DNA of 41,604 nt from Crocosphaera sp. Its GTDB lineage: Bacteria > Cyanobacteriota > Cyanobacteriia > Cyanobacteriales > Microcystaceae. Shown piece after piece: positions 26,643-41,604 of the stretch. How positions within the stretch are numbered: position 1 is the first letter of the stretch; each line of letters starts with the position of its first letter. The position numbers and the translations under genes were made by a program. The notes below the pieces were generated by a model. It searched no databases and had not been told where the DNA came from. It saw nothing but the letters and a program-made list of their open reading frames with translations. Location of the stretch: assembly GCA_030064935.1 (NCBI GenBank), contig JASJEA010000059.1, positions 1 through 41,604 on the forward strand, written 5' to 3'.

Positions 26643-27794
26643 ATGGGTAATAAAGCGTATAAATTTCGGTTGTATCCAAATCAAGAACAGCAACAATTCT
26701 TAGCAAAATGTTTTGGTTGTTCAAGATTTGTGTATAACTATTTTCTGCGCTTAACTACTGATATCTATGCCGACTGTAAAAAGAGCTTAAGATACAAAGA
26801 ATGGGCTAAATTACTAACATCTCTAAAAAAAGAGTTTGAGTGGCTAAAAGAGGTCAATTCTCAAGCATTACAGCAAACGCTTAAAGATTTAGAAACTGCT
26901 TATTCTCGCTTTTTTAAGGGATTAGCCAAGTTTCCTAGATTCAAGAAAAGGTCTAATAAGCAATCCTTTCGAGTTCCTCAACACTTTTCTATGACCTCAG
27001 AAGAGAAGTTACAACTTCCGAAAATGTCTCCTATTAAGATGATAATTCATCGAGAAATAGAAGGAGATATTAAAAGTGTAACGATTAGTAAAACTGCATC
27101 AGGAAAATATTATGCCTCAATTATTACAGAGTTAGACATCCCAAAAGCTCCCTTAAATGGGGAAAAAATCGGGATGGATCTAGGACTTAAAGATTTTTGT
27201 ATTACCAATAAACCTGAAAAGTTTGAGAATCCTCGTTATTTCCAACGTTCATTAAGAAGGTTAAAAATTAGACAAAGGAGGTTAAGTCGAAAAGACAAAG
27301 AATCTAACAATAGAAAAAAAGCTAGAGTTAAAGTAGCCAAAATTCACGAAAAAGTTGCTAACCAAAGATTAGACTATCAACACAAAATAAGTCTCAAGTT
27401 AACTAACGAGAACCAAGTTATTAGTTGTGAGGACTTGAATATTAAGGGGATGGTTAAAAATCGAAAACTAGCCAAGCAAATTAGTGACGTAGCATGGGGA
27501 CAGTTCCTAACCCTTTTAGAATACAAAGGTGACATCTATGGATGTGAAATAAAACTCGTGAAAAGATTCTTTCCTAGTTCTAAAAGATGTTCTAGTTGTG
27601 GGTATATCAAAGAAGATTTAACCCTAAAAGATAGAGATTGGACTTGTCCAAAATGTCATGCACATCACGACAGAGATATTAACGCCTGTCATAATTTGCT
27701 GCAATTCTCTGATGGATATATAGGGCAGGAAGTGTCCGAATCTACGCCTAACCAGACAGTTGAAACACTGTGTATCAAGAGCAGTAGTTCTTGA
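26643..27794 (+). CDS. tnpB: RNA-guided endonuclease TnpB (IS200/IS605 family)
   Basis: The 383-residue protein has the complete TnpB architecture. An N-terminal helix-turn-helix/wedge region is present (KAYKFRLYPNQEQQQFLAKC). The RuvC-I site is GMDLGLKDF (Asp179), RuvC-II is SCEDLNIKGM (Glu263), a zinc ribbon uses Cys316, Cys319, Cys335 and Cys338, and RuvC-III is DRDINACHN (Asp345). All three catalytic acidic residues are present, so it should be active as an RNA-guided DNA nuclease, the ancestor-like relative of Cas12. The ATG follows AAGGAGGT, an ideal ribosome binding site. The guide omega RNA is expected from the 3' end of the gene and the following hairpins. No tnpA neighbour exists. 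Confidence 0.93.
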   Translation: MGNKAYKFRLYPNQEQQQFLAKCFGCSRFVYNYFLRLTTDIYADCKKSLRYKEWAKLLTSLKKEFEWLKEVNSQALQQTLKDLETAYSRFFKGLAKFPRFKKRSNKQSFRVPQHFSMTSEEKLQLPKMSPIKMIIHREIEGDIKSVTISKTASGKYYASIITELDIPKAPLNGEKIGMDLGLKDFCITNKPEKFENPRYFQRSLRRLKIRQRRLSRKDKESNNRKKARVKVAKIHEKVANQRLDYQHKISLKLTNENQVISCEDLNIKGMVKNRKLAKQISDVAWGQFLTLLEYKGDIYGCEIKLVKRFFPSSKRCSSCGYIKEDLTLKDRDWTCPKCHAHHDRDINACHNLLQFSDGYIGQEVSESTPNQTVETLCIKSSSS

Positions 27795-29817: not shown

Positions 29818-29861
29818 CTAACCATAGCATTAGATATCATATCTCAAATCTAGGATAAGGG

Positions 29862-29937
29862 TTGACTTCTCCTCCGCATAAATGACGGAGGATTCTAAGC
29901 AGATGCAAAGCAACGGGTTAAAACCAGGTTGCTTTGC
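29862..29937 (-). repeat. Two-hairpin module, copy 1 (IS605 right-end-like)
   Basis: Plus-strand reading: TTGACTTCTCCT leads into stem 1, TCCTCCG (29870-29876) with CGGAGGA (29886-29892) and a nine-base loop. Next comes TTCTAAGCAGAT, then stem 2, GCAAAGCAAC (29905-29914) with GTTGCTTTGC (29928-29937), with GGTTAAAACC in the loop. A second module with the same plan is at 41477-41553. The reverse strand ends in GAATCC, hairpin and AGTCAA, the style of IS200/IS605 right ends, but no tnpB is adjacent. Two more hairpins follow at 29968-29988 and 29999-30018. Confidence 0.65.
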
Positions 29938-30085
29938 CTCTTTTAGCTGATCAGAACTTTAATTTCTGGGGACGCGTCAAAACGCCCCTAGACACTCGAC
30001 TTAAATCAAAATTTAAGTGTTGTGCTTACTTCTTGATTCAGTGGCTCATAGGGTAAACCTTTGTTTATCATTGCCTAATGCCCAT

Positions 30086-41476: not shown

Positions 41477-41553
41477 TTGACATCTCCTTTGGTTGAAACA
41501 CAAAGGATTCTAAGCGGATGTTGTGAAGGTGGTTAAAAACACACCTTCACAAC
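41477..41553 (-). repeat. Two-hairpin module, copy 2 (IS605 right-end-like)
   Basis: Plus-strand reading: TTGACATCTCCT leads into stem 1, TCCTTTG (41485-41491) with CAAAGGA (41501-41507) and a nine-base loop. Next comes TTCTAAGCGGAT, then stem 2, GTTGTGAAGGTG (41520-41531) with CACCTTCACAAC (41542-41553), with GTTAAAA in the loop. Single-stranded parts match copy 1 at 29862, while stem sequences differ but stay paired. No tnpB is seen in the remaining bases of the window. Confidence 0.65.
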
Positions 41554-41604
41554 GCTTACGATATAATTTATTTAAGTTTTTATACAAATCATACCGTTTT
41601 GGGA

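Follow-up and report, generated by a model that had tools for sequence, protein, structure and literature searches.

Two covarying hairpin modules on a Crocosphaera contig as probable right ends of IS200/IS605-family elements

Two hairpin modules on one contig

The stretch of Crocosphaera sp. DNA analysed here (the window) is 41,604 nt long and carries the full pattern TTGACNTCTCC...GGATTCTAAGCNGATG exactly twice, at positions 29862 and 41477, and nowhere else. The stop codon of a glpK-like FGGY kinase gene precedes the 41477 module by 9 bp. An intact TnpB gene at 26643-27794 (NCBIfam IS200_TnpB, 447.7 bits, cut-off 425) is unrelated to the modules, and is followed by a different GC-rich hairpin. 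No Y1 TnpA gene was seen in the window, no tRNA was found in it, and Rfam searches of it at gathering thresholds gave no match.

Read on the minus strand, each module runs ...GCTTAGAATCC-hairpin-GTCAA. Folded as minus strand, both modules greatly exceed shuffled sequences in stability (z = -4.58 for 29862 and -5.68 for 41477), with none of 200 shuffles equally stable in either case. Stem 1 is TCCTCCG/CGGAGGA in one copy and TCCTTTG/CAAAGGA in the other, a difference of two compensatory pairs, and nearly all bases of stem 2 are exchanged between the copies with pairing retained. The original prediction of modules whose stems differ and yet remain paired was thus exact in its coordinates and is borne out by the folds. 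It had also described the blocks shared by the two copies as unpaired throughout, but part of one shared block (TCC...GGA) sits in stem 1.

Within the window, the 16-base core alone, allowing up to three mismatches, is no rarer than chance: two matches were found where 1.01 are expected, and 27 of 100 shuffles held at least two. At the same tolerance the genome to which the window belongs (G000) has 116 matches, compared with 77 in a reversed control, and it contains 16 exact copies of the core and three with one mismatch. The excess over chance resides in the exact core and the structure, not in the loosely matched core.

Covariation across the family

The genome of the window is a draft of 319 contigs that is 89% complete. 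A longer version of the pattern was matched in five of 59 genomes, and named records that carry the pattern include two Crocosphaera metagenome-assembled genomes (L063 and L064) and other cyanobacteria. We aligned 21 right ends (alignment A1), whose consensus has two hairpins with 20 base pairs. In this alignment 90.7% of cells are paired (62.9% in shuffled versions), 126 cells carry changes on both sides of a pair (41 when shuffled), and the covariation score is 0.734 (0.211 when shuffled). None of 500 shuffles reached the observed values, except in the count of pairs that show a double change, where one of 500 did. Versions of the alignment in which the structure was slid along the sequences scored only 0.06-0.12 for covariation. 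The three outer pairs of hairpin 1 are invariant, but they were fixed by the pattern used for collection, as was the terminal GTCAA of most A1 sequences.

A covariance model built from A1 (R1) gave at least 106 matches with E <= 0.01 in nine genomes of the genus, at least 30 of them in the genome of the window; since the search scored 150 of the 1448 to 1888 first-look candidates per genome, these counts are possibly lower bounds. The two modules of the window, both among the 21 seeds, scored 91.6 bits (29862-29954, minus strand) and 93.2 bits (41477-41570, minus strand).

A second alignment (A4) was made by the model on 32 chosen loci. Of the 38 regions searched upstream for tnpB (see below), it omits L195, L196, L199 and L212, which were already in A1, and L204, L205, L214, L215, L219, L222 and L227, which were weak, cut short or near-copies of rows that were kept. 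Its 33 rows (32 distinct, two of them repeating A1-type copies) are paired in 94.8% of cells as opposed to 65.9% after shuffling, and they have 171 double-change cells versus 46, a value that none of 500 shuffles reached. Change on both sides occurs in 18 of the 20 pairs, and covariation is 0.712 compared with 0.05-0.12 in slid versions, although A4 was fitted to R1 and so is biased towards it. Shuffled controls ignore the relatedness of the sequences, whereas slid controls retain it.

The two hairpins of the right end thus covary strongly across the family, in the 21 seed sequences as in the 32 rows from the genus. The genome-wide search that the original prediction had proposed revealed far more than two copies, with covariation in relatives. 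Its argument for selection on structure stands insofar as the structure is kept and covaries across the family; the two copies on their own, from which it had been drawn, could not show selection. A covariance model with strong covariation is now available for these ends.

Association with tnpB and element termini

Upstream of 38 of the 106 matches (25 regions from sister genomes and 13 from the genome of the window), we searched for tnpB with five TnpB proteins of the clade as queries. Eleven of the 25 sister-genome regions contain a long stop-free tnpB match that ends 49-107 nt before the end of the right end. In one more the long match has a single stop; the other 13 regions are partial, break off at a contig end, consist of ends only or are empty. 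None of the 13 right ends with upstream sequence in the genome of the window has an intact tnpB, and no aligned piece there exceeds 71 residues. Further full elements are L129 and L136, with tnpB genes of 478 and 449 codons, respectively; the TnpB of L136 matches NCBIfam guided_TnpB (176.2 bits, cut-off 100), and Pfam OrfB_IS605 likewise speaks for a TnpB identity. Genome G018 holds two 1.87-kb copies, 99.9% identical to each other, in which a tnpA gene (full-length Y1_Tnp, 135.8 bits) is divergent from the adjoining tnpB. No complete TnpA was found in the genome of the window, where two partial Y1 matches were the only ones seen.

The family also has members that consist of ends only. In the genome of the window, a 128-bp unit (G000:C286:19423-19550) extends from just after TTAC to TCAA, with both ends and no gene. 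Others, sized from their positions, measure about 300 bp in G008 (L040) and about 304 bp in G003 (L261). For a comparison of left ends we pooled 20 newly fetched sequences that match the 128-bp unit at its left end with L015, L040, L136 and L129. Of these 24 sequences, 21 have TTAC immediately at the left boundary (the exceptions are L258, L265 and L129); the set is mixed, in that only five of the 20 newly fetched stretches include an R1 right end and several are cut by contig ends. At the opposite terminus, TCAA is present in 30 of the 33 A4 rows. We take TTAC and TCAA to be the cleavage sites of IS608. No clean empty site that would separate TTAC as target from TTAC as element was found, and, as regards target duplication, the left junction of the 29862 copy is lost and the sequences on either side of the 128-bp unit differ among relatives. 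The left-end hairpin (of the CCATCG...CGATGG type) was recognised by eye, whereas those of the right end were recognised by covariation.

The right end thus overlaps the 3′ end of tnpB, and related left ends start at a conserved TTAC. This architecture resembles that of the IS605 group (IS608 and ISDra2) in its divergent Y1 tnpA and tnpB, hairpins near the ends, TTAC left boundary and right end terminating in TCAA. It differs in having two right-end hairpins, in a tnpB from a clade that lacks the CxxC zinc ribbon and has its glutamate at an alternative RuvC-II place, and in that tnpA was observed next to tnpB in only some members. We consider it very probable that both modules are right ends of tnpB-bearing IS200/IS605-family elements moved by Y1 TnpA, the 41477 copy being a tail cut by the contig end and the 29862 copy a 5′-truncated remnant, with hairpins presumably kept for the reading of single-stranded DNA by TnpA and as a scaffold of the TnpB reRNA. 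The suggestion that the reverse strand resembles an IS200/IS605 right end is corroborated by the overlap with tnpB and by the Y1 tnpA and tnpB of relatives; tnpB genes that end in the module, which the prediction had advised looking for, are those of the 11 sister-genome regions, L129 and L136. Its statement that no tnpB is present has to be corrected, as the last tnpB codons are found at 41477, where the contig cuts the gene, and a broken 3′ remnant is found at 29862.

Used as a query, the window TnpB found few relatives of the right-end family, because this protein is only about 20% identical to the family clade. We aligned ten TnpBs of the family (alignment A3: P0001 from L136, L060, L074, L133, L129, L128, L217, L221, L223 and L232), some of which adjoin Y1 TnpA. 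All ten have the asparagine of a GWN motif in the column of the canonical RuvC-II glutamate of the window TnpB. Their glutamate is at an alternative place, within EE[SA]Y[TS]S[KRQ]xSFLD, and no CxxC is found there; RuvC-I reads DPG in three and DHG in seven. DPG together with the alternative glutamate has been tied to IS607 pro-Fanzors in a survey whose search pattern required CxxC (PMC10711439), so that IS605-linked TnpBs like these could have escaped it. An AlphaFold model of TnpB made from three sequences was discarded (pLDDT 38.3). A single-sequence search of the PDB with TnpB gave no match up to E = 1; a profile search, whose alignment also included the window TnpB, recovered 12 sequences, which include TnpB and Cas12f entries.

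The two copies and their possible roles

To judge from its sequence, the 29862 copy is a 5′-truncated remnant. It comprises 198 bp (29862-30059, minus strand) with a broken tnpB 3′ end and the right end, and no left end is recognisable in it or beyond 30059. The segment matches element tails in G003, G001 and G004 with 82-84% DNA identity, and the copy matched in G004 has an intact tnpB. At 29862, by comparison, the TnpB tail is frameshifted and contains stops in tblastn alignments. In all five informative sister genomes (G003, G004, G005, G006 and G008) the flanking genes are 17-82 bp apart, by their matched ends, and lack the insertion; G001, G002 and G007 are uninformative, with the two genes on different contigs. 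By arithmetic the net insertion relative to G003 and G008 is 209 bp, made up of the 198 bp and about 11 further, unassigned bases. Two other assignments within this segment were rejected: that of the 198 bp to a MITE shared with other genomes, as the matched copies extend into longer elements, and that of the 31-bp piece at 30029-30059 to a left end, as it belongs to a palindromic repeat that occurs within tnpB sequence. This repeat, GATTCAGCGCGG...GACTGAATC, lies in frame and in a diverged form inside the tnpB of L136, and it is also present in L115-L120, within what looks by eye like another tnpB.

The 41477 copy is probably the tail of a full, multi-copy element. The contig stops 128 bp from the end of its right end, inside the 3′ end of tnpB (41477-41604, minus strand), and the stretch encodes the TnpB C-terminus PKRYDLYKNLNKLYRKRCEG, with 75% identity to the TnpB of L060 over 20 residues. 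A relative in G003 with 98% DNA identity has an intact tnpB of 478 codons and a shortened tnpA of 108. Near-identical right ends occur elsewhere in the draft, mostly at contig ends, and two of them extend 201 bp inward. The contig break could thus make the end of a full element resemble the solitary unit that had been predicted here.

The position of the 41477 module so close to the kinase stop codon might suggest that the modules are common intrinsic terminators, a possibility that the original prediction had itself named. Neither module has a GC hairpin followed by a T run, neither region contains any terminator-like site, the core GATTCTAAGC is conserved and the tnpB reading frame enters the module; this reading is almost certainly wrong. 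Ends-only units, which would need movement in trans, are known from Haloquadratum, where they are called PATEs (PMC3119063); in Halanaerobium a single PATE-like sequence consists of a left end, the end of tnpB and a right end (PMC7290912). The short derivatives of the present family (L015, L040 and L261) are like them, and in this respect the idea of trans-mobilised units applies to the family, but not to either copy in the window. Lacking a recognisable left end, the 29862 copy is not a mobilisable unit. That it is nevertheless a PATE or MITE moved in trans is extremely unlikely: the same genome does hold the 128-bp unit, but no left-end-like sequence follows 30059, and the matched 198 bp are interior tnpB tail, with about 11 bp extra. 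For the 41477 family, a high-copy ends-only element in the genome of the window is rather unlikely. Most right-end copies and eight left-end-side pieces lie at contig ends, as they would if any repeat broke the assembly, and close matches to the element interior do not exceed 50 bp in the bin, where otherwise only some matches of 67-77% identity were found. A 1.8-kb repeat could equally drop out of the bin, however, and the 98% identical element in G003 is full length. Moreover, two copies reach 201 bp, into tnpB sequence (the C66 copy), and the C264 copy reads into a group II intron.

Within the reading of both modules as right ends of IS200/IS605-family elements, two uses would preserve the hairpins. 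As single-stranded DNA they would be recognised by TnpA during excision and insertion; transcribed into RNA, this stretch would be the scaffold of the reRNA (omega-RNA) with which TnpB is loaded, and the sequence flanking GTCAA on its 3′ side would act as guide. The ISDra2 reRNA comes from the tnpB 3′ end and the right end, and its guide is about 16 nt of flanking sequence (PMC8612924). The present family is alike in that a structured right end overlaps the tnpB 3′ end and a flank would lie in guide position; the structure in this place is conserved, given the covariation in A1 and A4. The module fits an reRNA scaffold by anatomy and TnpA-read hairpins by position; most likely it would act in both ways, and either could drive the covariation. 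Two archaeal omega-RNA families are in Rfam (RF02656 and RF02657; PMC12558985), and both are absent from our Rfam results for the window at gathering thresholds and for the two modules at permissive ones. The permissive searches gave five weak matches to five different families at 41477 and a single one at 29862, to HgcC RNA (RF00062; full length, 29849-29990, minus strand, 17.9 bits, E = 0.075). We rejected membership of 29862 in RF00062, whose gathering threshold is 50 bits. HgcC1-3 of T. kodakarensis lie in sense orientation inside transposase genes, a likeness that makes the match a lead only; the HgcC RNA of P. furiosus is antisense, and HgcC4-5 have no tie to transposases (PMC4247193).

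The flank of the 29862 copy (29843-29861, minus strand) would be in guide position if an reRNA were made. A domesticated stand-alone guide RNA, transcribed from this module and used in trans by a TnpB, could account for two hairpins that are intact beside a broken tnpB remnant, and the genome does have open TnpB frames of related kinds. Well-paired stems are expected in a young remnant anyway, at up to three mismatches the presumed guide has no match in the draft but itself, and none of the five informative sister loci has an orthologous insertion. A weak promoter-like match (9/12) on the minus strand lies inside both modules, though the start would fall within the module, and the right ends beside the inspected TnpBs of the genome either belong to a different type or reach only low R1 scores (20 bits or less). 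We regard such a role as very doubtful. Near 41477 there are five promoter-like matches where 0.7 are expected, an excess to which we attach no weight. It is likewise highly improbable that orphan guide RNAs are still produced by the 29862 remnant and by some of the genome's other right ends without tnpB, for use in trans by intact TnpBs; were these tnpB-less copies expressed, they would allow trans-acting guide RNAs of TnpB to be tested in a natural setting.

The two-hairpin modules are real, but of an already known kind, the ends of IS605-family elements. This explains a class of small, structured repeats found in the genomes of cyanobacteria. Literature searches listed papers on PATEs and on reRNAs and, among those listed, none that treats the cyanobacterial right-end family of 29862 and 41477.

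Several further arrangements were seen around these right ends. Group II introns (RF00029) lie just upstream of this type of right end in three cyanobacterial records, L031 (G000:C264; 683-758), L037 (1830-1906) and L068 (4586-4673), and the reading frame that follows the intron in L037 encodes TnpB. At L006 (1138-1470), a 41477-type right end abuts a stretch weakly similar to another tnpB (27.5%, E = 5e-7), which suggests an element inserted into another. A repeat of about 122 bp (L199, 2721-2842) occurs, whole or in part, many times in the genus and adjoins the 128-bp ends-only element.
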